From positions 1 through 64,000 of the forward strand of contig JAAFIA010000006.1 of the NCBI GenBank assembly GCA_013298545.1: DNA of 64,000 nt. Direction: 5' to 3'. Under the pieces are notes generated by a model. That model did no database searches and had not been told where the DNA came from. It was given only the letters and a program-made list of their open reading frames with translations. The translations under genes and the position numbers were made by a program. Shown here piece by piece: positions 1 through 6,103 of this stretch. This DNA is from Bacteroidota bacterium. GTDB taxonomy: Bacteria > Bacteroidota > Bacteroidia > Palsa-965. The number at the start of each line of letters is the position of its first letter. The stretch's first letter is position 1.

Positions 1-16
1 TTCATCAGTAGATTTC

Positions 17-56
17 CTTGCTCCGTTCGTGTTTTATGAAACGAGGAGTAGAAGGC
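17..56. repeat. Imperfect inverted repeat upstream of the first gene
   Basis: Two arms, ccttgctccgttcgt and a loosely complementary aaacgaggagtagaagg, surround a short A/T loop. The rest of 1-246 shows no reading frame I trust. The element resembles short palindromic intergenic repeats common in Bacteroidota, but that is inference and pairing is imperfect. Confidence 0.3.
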
Positions 57-246
57 CGATGACAAAAATGTATTTTTAACTTAACGCGCATGCGATGCTT
101 CGGGACAAATTTTAAACAGGCTCTAAAGGATTTGATAAGTGGGGGAAATGGGTGTGATTTGGGGTGATATTTGTTTTATAACTACAGAAAAATATACTAT
201 TCTAAACTACCTTGCACCACAAATAAACCATTTTAATTGATTCGTC

Positions 247-714
247 ATGCACGCAAACGCGCAACTCATTACCGATTTTTACACGGCTTTTCAACGCAAA
301 GAAATTGCGTTTATGCAACAAGCGTACGCCGACCATGCAACTTTCAGCGATCCCGTATTTCAAAACTTGAATGCCCAAGAAGTACGCGCCATGTGGGAAA
401 TGCTTATCAGCTCTGGCAAAGACTTGGTGCTTGAATTTAAAGATATTAAAGCCGATGAAAAAATTGGTGAAGCCACTTGGATTGCAACGTACTCTTTTTC
501 AAAAACGGGGCGGCGCGTAACCAATCACATTCATGCAACATTTGCATTTGAAAATGGAAAAATTGTAAAACACATCGACCATTTCGATTTTTACCGATGG
601 AGCAAACAAGCCTTGGGTATTTCAGGATTGCTCTTGGGCTGGACAGGCTTTCTCCGCACGAAAGTACAAACAACAGCACGCGCAGGTTTGACGGAGTTCA
701 TGAAAGCTCGCTAG
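247..714 (+). CDS. SnoaL-like / nuclear transport factor 2-fold protein
   Basis: This 155-residue protein has the NTF2/SnoaL-like cone fold pattern: an N-terminal helix pair (HANAQLITDFYTAFQRKE), a YADHATFSDPVF strand typical of this family, then long strands ending in HIDHFDFYRW. Proteins of this fold act as small-molecule isomerases, hydrolases or pocket-binding proteins, and the substrate cannot be read from sequence. The C-terminal 35 residues (LGISGLLLGWTGFL, then a basic tail) are longer and more hydrophobic than a minimal SnoaL domain. The start at 247 is the only ATG that keeps the whole domain. It stands alone, with a decayed gene start behind it and a convergent peptidase after that. 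No signal peptide is visible, so it is probably cytoplasmic. Confidence 0.75.
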   Translation: MHANAQLITDFYTAFQRKEIAFMQQAYADHATFSDPVFQNLNAQEVRAMWEMLISSGKDLVLEFKDIKADEKIGEATWIATYSFSKTGRRVTNHIHATFAFENGKIVKHIDHFDFYRWSKQALGISGLLLGWTGFLRTKVQTTARAGLTEFMKAR

Positions 715-753
715 AAAATCACACCTTTGCGCCATTCTAAAAAACTAAAAAAC

Positions 754-806
754 ATGGAAGTTCGCGACAGCAACGGCACACTTTTAAACGACGGCGATAC
801 GAGAAG
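754..806 (+). pseudogene. phnA-like gene start, truncated by a heptanucleotide array
   Basis: The frame from ATG 754 begins MEVRDSNGTLLNDGDT, which closely matches the start of short PhnA-domain (YjdM/alkylphosphonate-utilization) proteins, typically MEVKDSNG..L.DGDSV followed by IKDLKVKG. After about 16 residues the match stops and the frame runs into the TTCCARR heptamer array at 807. The rest of a PhnA domain (IKDLKVKG, LKRGT, KNIRL) is absent from the following sequence. The frame stays open through the array to 1158, but that part is low-complexity repeat translation. An A-rich leader (ctaaaaaactaaaaaac) and a CACCTTTGCGCC stretch upstream look like an original promoter and leader. I read this as a decayed gene whose 3' part was replaced. 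Family recall is from memory. Confidence 0.6.
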
Positions 807-1044
807 TTTCAAATTCCAGATTTCAAGTTCCAGATTCCAAGTTCCAAATTTCAAATTCCAGATTCCAAGTTCCAGATTTCAAGTTCCAGATTCCAAGTTC
901 CAGATTTCAAGTTCCAGATTCCAAGTTCCAGATTTCAAGTTCCAGATTCCAAGTTCCAAATTTCAAATTCCAGATTCCAGATTCCAAGTTCCAGATTCCA
1001 AATTTCAAGTTCCAAGTTCCAAATTCCAAGTTCCAAGTTCCAAA
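807..1044. repeat. Heptanucleotide tandem array, 34 units of TTCCARR
   Basis: Units such as ttccaag, ttccaga, ttccaaa and tttcaaa repeat every 7 bases from 807 to 1044 with no phase slip that I can find (238 = 34 x 7). Translation in any frame gives FQVPSSK-type peptides, so the 143-residue ORF over it is not evidence of a gene. It lies between the convergent SnoaL-like/phnA remnant and the M13 peptidase gene. Confidence 0.9.
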
Positions 1045-1077
1045 CTAATTTCTTTGGGAGTTGGAACTTGGAGCTTG
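1027..1077. terminator. Hairpin formed by the array end and two inverted heptamers
   Basis: The last forward units (caagttccaagttccaa, 1027-1043) can pair with ttggaacttggagcttg (1061-1077), giving a 17-bp stem with one G-T wobble and a 17-base loop. There is no T tract, so intrinsic terminator activity is uncertain. It sits just past the stop codon of the convergent peptidase gene and may protect or end that transcript. Confidence 0.5.
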
Positions 1078-1085
1078 CCCTGTCA

Positions 1086-3131
1086 TTACCAAATGTTCAC
1101 GCGCAAACTATCTGCGCGCCACATCGCATCGCCTTCTTTCACACTAAATGCCGCATAAAATTCAGGGATGTTGGCAAACGGTCCATTCACGCGCCATTTC
1201 GCAGGAGAATGCACATCTGACAATAAACGTTCGCTTAATTGCTTTTCTTTTTGATGGCCCAACCAACCCAAGGCGTACCCCATAAAGTAACGCTGCATAG
1301 GTGTATAACCACCAATTTTCTCATTTTTCTTGTATTGTTCTGTTTGCTTAAACGCATCGATTCCCAATAAAATTCCGCCATAATCCGCAATGTTTTCGCC
1401 GAGTGTAGCCTTACCGTTGATGAACATACCTTTGATCGGTTCGTAAGCGTTAAACTGATCAACCATCACTTGTGCGCGCGTCATGAATTTATTTTCGTCT
1501 TCGATCGTCCACCAACTTTGCAAATTTCCGGCAGCGTCAAATTGGCGGCCTTCATCGTCGAAGCCATGCGTAATTTCATGACCAATGGTTGACGCGGCAG
1601 CATAACCATAAACCATCGCATCATCCGCCAACGAATCGGGAACACCCGGAATGGTGAAAATGGCTGCGGGCAATACAATTTCATTGTTTGATGGATTGTA
1701 ATACGCATTGTACGTTTGCGGTGTCATGTCCCACTCCGTTCGATCAACTGGTTTTCCGTATTTCGCAAGTTGATCGGCAAAACTCCAACGGTTAGCATTC
1801 ATCATATTTTCGCAGAACGAATTGGTTGTAATTTTCAATGCCGAATAATCTTTCCATTTATCGGGATAACCTACTTTTTTACTCATGCGCGCCAATTTAT
1901 CGAGCGCTTTTTGTTTGGTGCTATCGCCCATCCACGCAAGTGTTTTGATGCGAGCCGCATACGCATTGCGAATGGCTTCAACCATATTGGTGTAACGGGC
2001 TTTAGCCGTTTCGTTGAAATATTCTTTCACAAATAATTTTCCAAGCACAAAACCCATTGCATCTTCTTCGGCATTCAAGACGCGCTTCCAACGTGGGCGC
2101 GGTTGTTCAATTCCACGCAATTTACGGCGGTAGAAATCAAAGTTCTCATTAAAAATTGGTGCTGAGAGGTATTCTGAAAATGACGACACCAGGTGAAAAC
2201 GCATGTAGTGTTTCAACGTATTAATGTCTGTCGTCTTCAATAAATTTTCAAGCGCTTTGAAAAACTCGGGTTGCCCCACAACAATTGAATCAACTTTGGT
2301 CATGCCAAAACTGGTAAACATCCAAGCCCAATCGATCGAAGGTGTTAAGTTTTTGGTAACATCAGCCGTTGTCATTTTATTGTAATTGGCTTCAGGATCG
2401 CGGAGTTCTTCTAATTTACGAGATGATTTGGCGAGGGCTGTTTCAAATTTCAAAATGTCTTCGCCAGCTTTTTTTGCTTCATTGCTTTCAACACCCGCAA
2501 GCACCAACATACGCGAAATATGTCCGGGATATTCTTCGCGTGCTTTCTTCGGATTTTCATCGTTGCTAAAATAGTAATCGCGATTAGGAAGTCCGAGACC
2601 GCCTTGCCAGAGCTGTGCCGAAATGAGTCCGCTATTTTTAGCATCTTGGCCTACACCAAAATAATAAAACATGCCCATTTGCAGCGATTCAAAACTAGCA
2701 TTGACCGCAACGAGTCCTTTCACGTCGGTAATGCCATTGATGCGATCGAGTTCTTTTTGAAGTGGTGCAATACCCAATTGATCTGCTTTGGCCGAATCCA
2801 TCGCTGCGATCCAGAAATCGCCAATTTTTTGGGTTTCGGTTCCTTCGGCTGCTTTTGCAGCAGCAGCATCTTCATTGATTTTACGAATTTTCTGTTTGAT
2901 CTCATCATCCACCAAATTGCCGATGCCCCAACCACTTTCAGAGCCTGGAATCGGATTGCGCTTAATCCATCCGCCATTGGCAAACTGGAAAAAATCTTGT
3001 GCGGGACTTACCGACGAATCGACGTTGGATGCGAGAAAATCGGGGCGGGCGGGTTCGTTTGTTGTTTTATCGTTTGAACAAGCCCAAACAGTTGCTGCAA
3101 CGAATGCGGCAGGAATCAGAATTTTTTTCAT
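1086..3131 (-). CDS. M13 family zinc metallopeptidase (neprilysin/PepO-like), lipoprotein
   Basis: This 681-residue protein has full M13 length. It hydrolyses small peptides and probably acts outside the inner membrane, because the N-terminus is a lipoprotein signal (MKKILIPAAFVAATVWAC, Cys as the lipid-modified residue). The large N-terminal peptidase_M13_N domain starts with DFFQFANGGWIKRNPIP. The catalytic domain carries the zinc motif HEITH at residues 518-522 inside VYGYAAASTIGHEITHGFDD, and the third ligand in GENIADYGG (Glu579, with Asp583). The C-terminus RVNGPFANIPEFYAAFSVKEGD matches the usual NPGPLRNxPEFYxAFxVKxGD ending, and it closes in W like the family. Monocistronic; convergent with the upstream genes, ending at the array hairpin. 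The ATG at 3131 gives the complete signal. Confidence 0.95.
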   Translation of the reverse strand: MKKILIPAAFVAATVWACSNDKTTNEPARPDFLASNVDSSVSPAQDFFQFANGGWIKRNPIPGSESGWGIGNLVDDEIKQKIRKINEDAAAAKAAEGTETQKIGDFWIAAMDSAKADQLGIAPLQKELDRINGITDVKGLVAVNASFESLQMGMFYYFGVGQDAKNSGLISAQLWQGGLGLPNRDYYFSNDENPKKAREEYPGHISRMLVLAGVESNEAKKAGEDILKFETALAKSSRKLEELRDPEANYNKMTTADVTKNLTPSIDWAWMFTSFGMTKVDSIVVGQPEFFKALENLLKTTDINTLKHYMRFHLVSSFSEYLSAPIFNENFDFYRRKLRGIEQPRPRWKRVLNAEEDAMGFVLGKLFVKEYFNETAKARYTNMVEAIRNAYAARIKTLAWMGDSTKQKALDKLARMSKKVGYPDKWKDYSALKITTNSFCENMMNANRWSFADQLAKYGKPVDRTEWDMTPQTYNAYYNPSNNEIVLPAAIFTIPGVPDSLADDAMVYGYAAASTIGHEITHGFDDEGRQFDAAGNLQSWWTIEDENKFMTRAQVMVDQFNAYEPIKGMFINGKATLGENIADYGGILLGIDAFKQTEQYKKNEKIGGYTPMQRYFMGYALGWLGHQKEKQLSERLLSDVHSPAKWRVNGPFANIPEFYAAFSVKEGDAMWRADSLRVNIW

Positions 3132-3246
3132 AGGTATCGCTTAAAGCAGCCGAAAGATACAGCGAAACCCGATGAAAACAGCAATTTTTATCAGCCAAAA
3201 ATAACCGTCTAAACACACGTACTACCTTCTACCCCAAACCGAACAA

Positions 3247-3288
3247 AACAAAAAAAGCGACCATTTCCTTCGCAGCGGAAATGGTCGC
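3247..3288 (-). terminator. Rho-independent terminator after the plug-domain gene
   Basis: Perfect 12-bp stem gcgaccatttcc (3257-3268) / ggaaatggtcgc (3277-3288) with an 8-base loop, followed on the minus strand by a T run (A run 3250-3256 on the plus strand). Confidence 0.9.
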
Positions 3289-3311
3289 GGGGTTGACGAA
3301 ACCGGAAGCAA

Positions 3312-4178
3312 TCAGTTTCCGTCGCCGTCTGTTGAAGCGGGCTGCTGTTGCGGGGCAGGCTCTTGCTTGGCACCATCTTCAATCACTTCGTCTTTATTCT
3401 CAATGCGTTTTCCTTCTTCGGCATCTTTCGCTTTTTTCTCTGCTGCTGCTTTTTCCGCAGCTGCTTCGTACATGGTTTGTTTTTGGGTTTGTCCGGTGTA
3501 AAAGCTTTTCGTAGTAATGATGATAATACCACCAGAAACATCGCCGTAAGAAGCTGGAATACCGCCAGACAAAATGCTCACCCGATCAATCGCCATGCCT
3601 GTTACATTCAAATTTCCGTAGAGTGCTTCGCCATCGACAAAAATTTTAGATGCCCCTTCGCGTGAGCCACGCATAACGAGTTGTCCGCCTTTGCCTTCGC
3701 TCACTTGTGAGTTGAAACCCGTAACCATACCCACAACATCGCCTTTAGCAGTAGCTACATTTTTAATGAGTTGCGGGTCGATGTTTTGAATGGTAGAGAA
3801 GTTTTTATCTACTGGTGAACGGTCGGCTTCAATCACAACAACATCGGAATCAGATGCCGCAACAATCATATCAAAATTGGCATACGCGGTTTGAGCCGCA
3901 TTAACTACGATATTTTTTTTGGTGTAGGCTTTGTAACCGATGTAACGCGCTTCTACGTCGTAATTTCCGGCAGGAAGACTACGGAAGTAAAAATTGCCGT
4001 CGAGGTTGGTAGCGCCGCCAGTAGTTGGTCCACCAGCGATGATGCGCACAATAGCGCCTGGAATGGGTTGTTTCTTTTCGTCGAGTACAGTAACTTTTAA
4101 ATCGCCGTTTGATTGGGCAAAACTTTGAAATCCGCAAAGGATAGCAGTAAGTGCGAAGAGGTTGCGTAAGGTTTTCAT
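3312..4178 (-). CDS. Plug-only TonB-family protein with CarboxypepD_reg domain, no barrel
   Basis: The order is signal peptide (to FAQS, about residue 22), a carboxypeptidase-regulatory-like Ig domain (about 26-110; VLDEKKQPIPGAIVRI, TNLDGNFYFRSLPAGNYDV), then a TonB plug domain (about 130-230) with VMRGSREGASKIFVDGE and ILSGGIPASYGDVSGG. SusC/TonB receptors continue from here into a beta-barrel of more than 500 residues. This one instead ends after 288 residues in a charged Ala/Glu/Lys-rich tail (AAAEKAAAEKKAKDAEEGK, then QEPAPQQQPASTDGDGN). The frame is intact and has a clean stop and a strong terminator, so this looks like a real short gene and not a broken receptor. It is probably periplasmic. 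Function unknown; it could bind TonB-linked partners or a separate barrel. Confidence 0.85.
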   Translation of the reverse strand: MKTLRNLFALTAILCGFQSFAQSNGDLKVTVLDEKKQPIPGAIVRIIAGGPTTGGATNLDGNFYFRSLPAGNYDVEARYIGYKAYTKKNIVVNAAQTAYANFDMIVAASDSDVVVIEADRSPVDKNFSTIQNIDPQLIKNVATAKGDVVGMVTGFNSQVSEGKGGQLVMRGSREGASKIFVDGEALYGNLNVTGMAIDRVSILSGGIPASYGDVSGGIIIITTKSFYTGQTQKQTMYEAAAEKAAAEKKAKDAEEGKRIENKDEVIEDGAKQEPAPQQQPASTDGDGN

Positions 4179-4333
4179 AACTTATGTTTATTGAAGGTTA
4201 GTAATCTGCTTCTGTTGTGGATAAAACGCATGGCGCTGGGGGATTCCACACGGAAATGTATTTTTTCTCAAAAGCGGTTGATTTGGGGGGCGGGGTGGTT
4301 GATTTGCGTTGATAAGTGGCTTTTAAAATCAAG

Positions 4334-4508
4334 TTCCAGTTTCCAAGTTCCAGTTTCCAAGTTCCAAGTTCCAGTTTCCAAGTTCCAAGTTCCAGTTTCC
4401 AAGTTGCAGTTTCCAAGTTGCAGTTTCCAAGTTCCAAGATCCAGTTTCCAAGTTGCAAGTTCCAGTTTCCACGTTCCAGTTTCCACGTTTCATGCTCCAG
4501 TTTCTAAA
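4334..4508. repeat. Second heptanucleotide array, 25 units of TTCCARK
   Basis: Units ttccagt, ttccaag and ttgcagt, with later drifted forms (ttccacg, tttcatg, ctccagt), keep a 7-base phase from 4334 to 4508. It lies between the divergent plug-only gene and prfB. The rest of the 4179-4615 gap holds no gene I can support. ORFs listed on both strands here are repeat translations. Confidence 0.88.
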
Positions 4509-4565
4509 TCCTCAAAAGCATGATGCTGTTGTTTCTTAAGAGTGGGAATAGCGATCTTTTATTTT

Positions 4566-4593
4566 TGGAATTTGGAGTTTGGAAACTGGAAAC
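4566..4593. repeat. Four inverted heptamers beyond array 2
   Basis: tggaatt, tggagtt, tggaaac, tggaaac are reverse complements of the array unit. They sit 57 bases past the array end, so they can pair with array units. The first array has the same arrangement (two inverted heptamers). Confidence 0.75.
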
Positions 4594-4610
4594 TTTTCTG
4601 TGTACTTTTG
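4578..4610 (+). promoter_or_regulatory. Promoter of prfB, Bacteroidota type
   Basis: TACTTTTG (4603-4610) matches the TAnnTTTG -7 element. A TTTG (4578-4581) lies 21 bases upstream at the -33 position, inside the inverted heptamers. The start codon is only 5 bases after the -7 element, so the mRNA should be nearly leaderless. Confidence 0.6.
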
Positions 4611-4615
4611 CGCCC

Positions 4616-5732
4616 ATGATTACAATAGACCACATCAAGGAATTAGTGGATCGCAAGGATGCGTTGAGGAGGCATCTTTGACGTTGACGGGAAACTGAAA
4701 CGCATTGCCGAAGAAGAGGCAAAATCGCAAGCGCCCGGATTCTGGGACGATCCGAAAGCAGCCGAAGTGTTGCTGAAAGAAATCAAAAAGAAAAAAAACT
4801 GGACAGATGCCTTTGCTTCGCTTGAAGCAAGTGTTGATGACCTGCATGTGATTTACGAATTTTTCAAGGCTGGCGAAGCTTCTGAAGCAGATCTCGAAAC
4901 GCAATTTGCCGAATCGGTTAAGAAAATCGAGGATCTGGAGTTCCGCAACATGTTGAGCGGTAAAGAAGACCATTTGGCAGCCGTACTCACCATCAACGCT
5001 GGTGCTGGCGGCACAGAAAGTCAAGATTGGGCCGATATGATGATGCGGATGTACATCATGTGGGGCGAACAAAACGGATTTAAAGTACGCGAGGCCGATT
5101 TGCAACAGGGCGAAACCGCCGGTATTAAATCGTGCACGTTGGAATTTGAAGGCGAAAATGCGTTTGGCTATCTCAAAGGCGAGAATGGTGTTCACCGTTT
5201 AGTCCGTATTTCACCTTTCGATTCAAATGCGCGCCGCCACACTTCTTTTTCTTCAGTATATGTGTATCCGTTGATTGATGATACGATTGAGATTGAAGTC
5301 AATCCGTCGGAATGCGAATGGGAAACATTTCGTTCGGGCGGTGCAGGTGGACAAAACGTAAACAAAGTAGAAACTGCTGTTCGCTTGTACCACAAGCCTT
5401 CGGGCATTGTGATTAAAAATCAGGAATCGCGTTCGCAGCACGACAACCGTGAAAATGCGTTGCGTTTGTTGAAATCGCAATTGTATGAATTGGAAATGCG
5501 CAAACGCATGGAGTCGATGAATGCAATCAACAGCACAAAGAAAAAAATTGAGTGGGGTTCGCAAATTCGCAATTATGTTTTGCATCCGTACAAAATGGTA
5601 AAAGACTTGCGTACCGATTATGAAACGTCAAACGCGCAAGGTGTGCTCGATGGCGACTTAAATCCATTCATCAAAGCGTATTTGATGGAATATGGCGCGA
5701 GTTGGAATACCGAATTGATTGGCGATAAATAA
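4616..5732 (+). CDS. prfB: Peptide chain release factor 2, with programmed +1 frameshift
   Basis: RF2 releases peptides at UGA and UAA. The provided ORF starts late (a GTG at 4767); the true start is ATG 4616. Frame 1 encodes 21 codons ([20 protein letters not shown] plus Leu) and meets TGA at 4679. Shifting +1 at CTT-TGA-C continues as [14 protein letters not shown] and joins the long frame, for about 371 residues in total, normal for RF2. The stop-recognition tripeptide SPF is in [13 protein letters not shown], and the catalytic GGQ is at about residues 244-246 ([10 protein letters not shown]). The frameshift allows RF2 to sense its own level. A near-leaderless promoter lies upstream, and an ArsC-like gene follows 8 bases after the stop, probably in the same transcript. 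Confidence 0.97.
4667..4682 (+). promoter_or_regulatory. RF2 autoregulatory frameshift site
   Basis: The sequence aggaggcatctttgac holds a strong internal Shine-Dalgarno (AGGAGG) three bases before the CTT slippery codon and in-frame TGA, followed by C. This is the canonical layout for the +1 slip. It is notable because Bacteroidota genes themselves seldom use strong Shine-Dalgarno sites. Confidence 0.95.
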
Positions 5733-5740
5733 ACTGTGCG

Positions 5741-6103
5741 ATGACAAAGCAAAAACTTCCGGTCGTGATTTGGCACAATGCGCGCTGCTCAACTAGCCGC
5801 ACAGCCATGTGTGTGTTGGATGACCTGAAAGCGACTGCAACGGTTGTGAATTATTTAGAAGATGAAATTACGGAAGCAATGCTCGAAGATTTGTTGGCGA
5901 AGTTGGGCATTCCGGCGTTTGGTCTGGTACGAACAAAAGAACCTTTGTACAAGGAAAAATATGCGCACCGGAAATTGTCGGAGAAACAATGGATTAAAGT
6001 ATTGATTAAGCATCCGGTTTTGATTGAGCGTCCGGTGGTGGTGAAAGGGAATAAGGCGGTGATTGGGCGACCGATGGAACGGGTGGTGGAGTTATTGAAG
6101 TAA
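5741..6103 (+). CDS. ArsC/Spx-family thioredoxin-fold reductase
   Basis: This 120-residue protein has the ArsC fold: an N-terminal strand leading to HNARCSTSRTA with the active-site Cys at residue 16, then LLAKLGIPAFGLVRTKEPLYKE. It ends with the family IERPVVV....AVIGRP segment. Glutaredoxin-dependent arsenate reductases (ArsC/YffB type) use the N-terminal Cys and an Arg of the ERP loop. Here ERP is present (IERPVV), as is the Arg of VRTKEP. Assignment to arsenate reduction rather than a YffB-like housekeeping role is not possible, since no arsenic-resistance gene is nearby. It follows prfB by 8 bases, so co-transcription is likely. Start ATG 5741 is the only sensible one. Confidence 0.85.
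   Translation: MTKQKLPVVIWHNARCSTSRTAMCVLDDLKATATVVNYLEDEITEAMLEDLLAKLGIPAFGLVRTKEPLYKEKYAHRKLSEKQWIKVLIKHPVLIERPVVVKGNKAVIGRPMERVVELLK

Follow-up and report, generated by a model that had tools for sequence, protein, structure and literature searches.

The sole phnA gene of the Bacteroidota genome studied here (G000) survives as its first 16 codons, which lead straight into an array of 7-bp repeats from a family multiplied across the genome, and the most likely account is that this array grew into or replaced the remainder of the gene. The locus lies near the beginning of the stretch of DNA that was analysed (the window), which covers contig C111 from its start to 64 kb, in an assembly of 4.53 Mb and 154 contigs; its features are collected in Table 1.

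Table 1. Features at the start of the window (coordinates are positions in the window)
Feature	Position	Strand	Evidence
SnoaL-like domain protein gene, upstream of the phnA remnant	247..714	+	Pfam SnoaL_2, E 6.5e-15
A-rich leader with CACACCTTTGCG, like the sequence before intact G006 phnA	721..753	+	side-by-side listing
phnA/yjdM 5' remnant, codons 1-16, MEVRDSNGTLLNDGDT	754..801	+	Pfam PF03831, PSSM, G006 alignment
Chimeric open frame, 134 aa, not claimed functional	754..1158	+	translation
Junction phnA/array, AGAAG (AAG = partial unit)	802..806	+	sequence reading
Left arm, 34 heptamer units TTCCAAG / TTCCAGA / TTTCAAG / TTCCAAA	807..1044	+	heptamer register
Short right arm, inverted, TTGGAACTTGGAGCTTG	1061..1077	-	pairs with 1006-1022, predicted hairpin
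M13 family peptidase, intact	1086..3131	-	Pfam Peptidase_M13_N, Peptidase_M13
Second array of the heptamer family, 18-19 units	4334..4508	+	repeat searches

Results

A phnA start that ends in a heptamer array

The open frame beginning at 754 translates as MEVRDSNGTLLNDGDT-RSFKFQISSSRFQVP...TLNAA* (134 aa), and a first-pass annotation had read its opening as that of a PhnA protein. The profile search that it proposed bears this out: residues 3-16 of the frame align with positions 1-14 of the PhnA domain profile PF03831 (15.7 bits, E 0.014 in Pfam). This is below the Pfam cut-off of 23.2 bits because just 14 profile positions are present, and as 14 positions are unable to reach that cut-off, a separate 14-column PSSM was built from 18 intact PhnA sequences of relatives, with the window's own sequence left out. 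Scored in this way, the remnant reaches 42.3 bits, where the intact genes of relatives span 20-48; the top score outside phnA, among 669,292 six-frame windows, is 14.4 bits. A chance likeness to PhnA is ruled out by this comparison with the best background, and the PhnA start at 754 is far beyond chance.

Aligned with the intact phnA of the same-genus genome G006, whose product begins MEVRDSNGTLLSEGDNVTLIKDL..., the remnant is identical at 36 of 45 nucleotides, with four synonymous and three conservative changes, and it carries the N-terminal PF03831 motif V-x-D-S/A-N-G-x-x-L-x-x-G-D. With the PhnA/YjdM family it shares the first 14 profile positions, placed as in short Bacteroidota PhnA proteins; it differs in lacking positions 15-69, so that positions 1-14 alone represent a domain of about 69 residues. 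The stretch is a gene remnant and not a PhnA/YjdM family member. Since it is still in frame, and its changes are mostly synonymous or conservative, the loss of phnA looks recent, and the remnant looks as if it had been under selection until not long ago.

Ahead of the ATG, the sequence (CACACCTTTGCG) is similar to that preceding the intact G006 gene (CTCTACCTTTGCTT), and CCTTTGC lies at a similar distance upstream of the ATG in both. The -7 promoter motif of Bacteroidota is TAnnTTTG; the leader agrees with it and may function as a promoter. The earlier description of this leader as A-rich and promoter-like holds for its A-richness and its resemblance to the sequence preceding G006 phnA, whereas a sigma-70 promoter scan before the remnant returned no match.

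About 53 of the roughly 69 PhnA codons are absent at the locus. The rest of the domain had been described as gone, and it is missing not only here but from the entire assembly (97% complete), in which neither a second phnA nor the lost 3' part was found, the latter also not beside any other array. The remnant is the surviving 5' end of the genome's sole phnA gene. Intact phnA is kept in four same-genus genomes (G001, G003, G004 and G006). In G041 (L027), phnA has an in-frame TAA in the matching N-terminal stretch (ILN*GDS); this gene is located close to the end of a contig.

Entry of the phnA start into a heptamer array after 16 codons, likewise proposed at first pass, is confirmed by the 34 units that follow the junction, and Tandem Repeats Finder places an array at 810-1044 with 14- and 28-bp periods. 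At the array's end an RNA fold is predicted with -33.8 kcal/mol and a z score of -5.05, and none of 200 shuffled sequences was as stable. The upstream SnoaL-like gene has its closest same-genus homologue (50% identical) on a different contig, with phnA not adjacent. On the other side, the M13 peptidase gene ends with its stop about 10 bp from the right arm; its orthologues in same-genus genomes are 63-67% identical, and its relatives belong mainly to Chitinophaga and other Chitinophagaceae/Chitinophagales. A phage origin found no support in a megablast search of positions 1-2500 against phage records, and positions 1-6000 contain no known structured RNA.

Two further observations concern the surroundings. 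Positions 105-127 (ACAAATTTTAAACAGGCTCTAAA) are part of another dispersed repeat, present at 23 places in the genome with at most one mismatch, and a palindromic copy of it adjoins the array in L146. The second array in the window lies upstream of a minus-strand gene (3312-4178) whose orthologue in G001 has a different upstream neighbour; the relative of that neighbour in G000 adjoins an array on C133 (L160).

A dispersed family of inverted heptamer arms

Pattern searches, which under-count short or degenerate arrays, found about 35 array clusters in G000, and 34 stretches around clusters were read. The clusters consist of head-to-tail 7-bp units, dispersed and mostly intergenic, as expected of heptameric tandem arrays, and individual arrays reach 85 units. 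Of the 24 two-armed clusters, 23 have their TTCCAAG blocks ahead of their CTTGGAA blocks, the exception (L150) being nested; at the detection threshold used, 11 of 35 clusters are one-armed. This fixed polarity identifies the clusters as inverted-repeat structures and, together with the predicted hairpin in the window, fits fold-back elements, whose two inverted arms are able to pair. Some arms are pure heptamers; in others, blocks of heptamers take turns with a longer spacer that is in many cases a variant of TTGCGATTTATGGACATAGGCG. Five clusters of this genome (L131, L135, L142, L151 and L163) show such alternation between heptamer blocks and a second motif close to TTGCGATTTATGGACATAGGCG.

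The family is restricted in lineage and patchy in distribution. The array 22-mer is absent from 14 relatives (six of the same genus, five of the same family and three further genomes of the class), and of 395 genomes from the class, 7 contain the heptamer, G000 among them.

Relative to genes, the arms keep different distances from stops and starts: the gap from arm to flanking gene has a median of 11 bp at stop codons (n=32) as against 69 bp at start codons (n=27; Mann-Whitney p 3e-6), with genes called by a simple longest-ORF rule, so that individual distances may be inexact. In the main arm, the 5' end lies a median of 24 bp from an ORF and the 3' end 199 bp, the 5' end being the nearer in 21 of 25 cases; the main arms of G000 thereby follow the rule, described for other heptamers, of having the nearer ORF at their own 5' side (PMC4692102). 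Ordinary 3' terminators were considered as an identity for the arrays and rejected, as no terminator-like site occurs in 600-1200 and the polarity also holds between divergent genes, so that a function at 3' ends fails to explain them. A stabilising role for the predicted hairpin is still conceivable.

The frames that enter the approximately 35 clusters were listed and ten of them scanned with Pfam; no conserved gene other than phnA was found to enter an array, and the scan gave no persuasive match, its DruA hit at L161 having an E value of 0.003. Long ORFs running through arrays were considered as fusions, but are mostly N-terminal extensions by way of the stop-free repeat. Erosion of genes by arrays is therefore rare, and to call the locus a direct view of how such arrays erode genes, as had been done, is too strong: phnA is the only conserved gene entered in the clusters inspected.

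Heptamers inside genes of other genomes

Repeats of TTCCAAG contain no stop codon in any of the six frames, a property that would let units persist inside genes. In genus g18, of another family, the heptamer stands in frame within conserved genes and encodes the peptide SSKFQVPS. In-frame AAGTTCC heptamers occur in UbiD and MqnD of G195 and in NAD synthase and dihydroorotase of G166 (loci L173, L174, L179 and L180). The MqnD loop holds four AAGTTCC units in G195 and none in the congeners G069 and G222, while MqnD of G136 (L195) carries, at the same loop position as in G195, a related array (AAGTTCA/AAGTCAA, peptide SSKSKVKS). We regard these in-frame heptamers as a lead, as short peptides may come to be inserted into loops in other ways as well. 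In G244 (L175, 1492-1520), a gene has heptamer units as its first codons, followed by a stretch that resembles a signal peptide (MSSKFQVPSSKFGAVLVPFLLSL).

How phnA probably lost its 3' end

We propose that phnA was cut when an array of the multiplied heptamer family came to occupy the site of its 3' end. The array forms one of the two arms in an inverted-repeat element, in which TTCCAAG units are followed by a loop and then by CTTGGAA units. Such arms may gain length through replication slippage or through unequal exchange, and would spread across unselected sequence until selection halts their growth at genes, as the gaps of about 11 bp to stop codons and about 70 bp to start codons suggest; phnA was probably dispensable here, hence the array was not halted. 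That an array grew into or replaced the gene was already the first-pass reading, and what stands of it is the PhnA start, the loss of the rest and the intact gene in array-free relatives, whereas growth itself is the most likely interpretation. Comparison with related genomes supplied array-free same-genus genomes with intact phnA but no orthologous locus: phnA sits in other gene neighbourhoods there, no empty orthologous site was found among relatives, and the phnA, SnoaL and M13 genes are separated from one another, so that the order of events is not seen. The end of phnA was likely removed by the array itself; a separate deletion of the 3' end, followed by growth of an array, would look identical, as would recombination between arrays or a misassembly.

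Recombination between two dispersed arrays could instead have brought the phnA side and the M13 side together, the rest of phnA being lost with the other product. About 35 similar arrays could recombine, phnA and the M13 gene are not neighbours in any relative checked, and two genes near the M13 gene of G001 have G000 relatives beside the C133 array (L160), so that at least one break in synteny falls at an array, as would fit recombination there. Even so, gene order in the genus varies widely anyway, and the 3' part of phnA is found neither beside another array nor elsewhere, so a deletion would still be needed; we consider this course of events unlikely.

The arrays also break the assembly, and the join between phnA and array is thus only as reliable as the assembly itself. 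Nine of the 35 clusters are no more than about 300 bp away from the end of a contig, and the contig begins just 753 bp ahead of the remnant, near another dispersed repeat, as might be expected if two loci had been joined through the repeat and phnA were intact in the organism. Such an artefact is rather more doubtful still, given that the missing codons are nowhere in the assembly, that a 238-bp array is within ordinary read-pair reach, and that the SnoaL gene has a same-genus homologue, so that the left flank is probably this organism's own.

The chimeric open frame had been described as running to 1158 after 16 real residues, which the translation substantiates, and since the repeat variants tested have no stops in sense-strand frames, any frame entering the array stays open, and the lack of a stop beyond codon 16 does not speak for a protein. 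That the frame encodes a functional short protein, a PhnA start plus repeat peptide, is very improbable: its 134 open codons, its conserved start and leader, and the similar repeat peptides tolerated inside genes of another family are outweighed by an openness expected from the repeat, by the loss of 53 of about 69 PhnA codons and by a tail (the final 70 or so bases) that is antisense to the M13 gene.

Discussion

As reported by Mrazek et al. (2007; cited in PMC4679880), no class of long simple repeats is more abundant than heptamers in the majority of the bacterial genomes examined. The heptamers GGGAATC and GGGGA(C/T)T of Xanthomonas and Nostoc are mostly intergenic, dispersed 7-bp units; coding-strand copies lie within 50 bp of stops, and non-coding-strand copies upstream of ORFs (PMC4692102). 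The arrays of G000 share with them the 7-bp units, the mostly intergenic location and the nearer ORF at their own 5' side; but those heptamers are rich in G, usually number about four units and fold into G-quadruplexes (PMC4692102), whereas the G000 arrays are A/T-rich, reach 85 units, lack G-tracts and come in inverted pairs. Direct repeats of TAACTGA, known from Beggiatoaceae, Cyanobacteria and a few Bacteroidetes, are likewise heptamer arrays of patchy distribution, some of them long in Bacteroidetes and occasionally placed at gene ends or inside genes (PMC4679880). By contrast, the main location of TAACTGA is immediately ahead of start codons, and its forward frames contain stops (PMC4679880), while TTCCAAG avoids starts and is stop-free in all six frames. 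The arrays described here belong to a known kind, that of intergenic heptameric repeats.

The protein-coding palindromic elements of Rickettsia, attributed to Ogata et al. in 2002 (cited in PMC3733652), are reportedly dispersed inverted repeats that occur in intergenic DNA and also, in frame, in conserved genes. They are single units of about 100-150 bp. The likeness to the present family lies in a dispersed inverted repeat that is both intergenic and in frame within conserved genes; the repeats here differ in being tandem heptamers, and their in-frame and inverted-pair cases come from different genomes.

More speculatively, the arrays may constitute a distinct class of selfish inverted repeats, in which (TTCCAAG)n arms grow outward from a palindromic seed, at their 5' ends, until they reach gene edges, and in which the stop-free heptamer also enters reading frames and persists as SSKFQVPS, phnA being a gene caught while it was overrun; we offer this scheme tentatively and consider it more likely to be wrong than right.

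The wider pattern of the arrays is of more interest than the single case of phnA. For the question of why heptamers are located at gene edges, G000 offers about 35 arrays of fixed polarity, a measurable standoff from stops and starts, and one gene whose end is missing at an array, with array-free related genomes existing for comparison. Copies standing in frame within UbiD, MqnD, NAD synthase and dihydroorotase of another family suggest that a stop-free heptamer can be taken up into proteins as well. If outward growth is true, the position of the arrays at gene edges would result from selection halting them there, and not from regulation.
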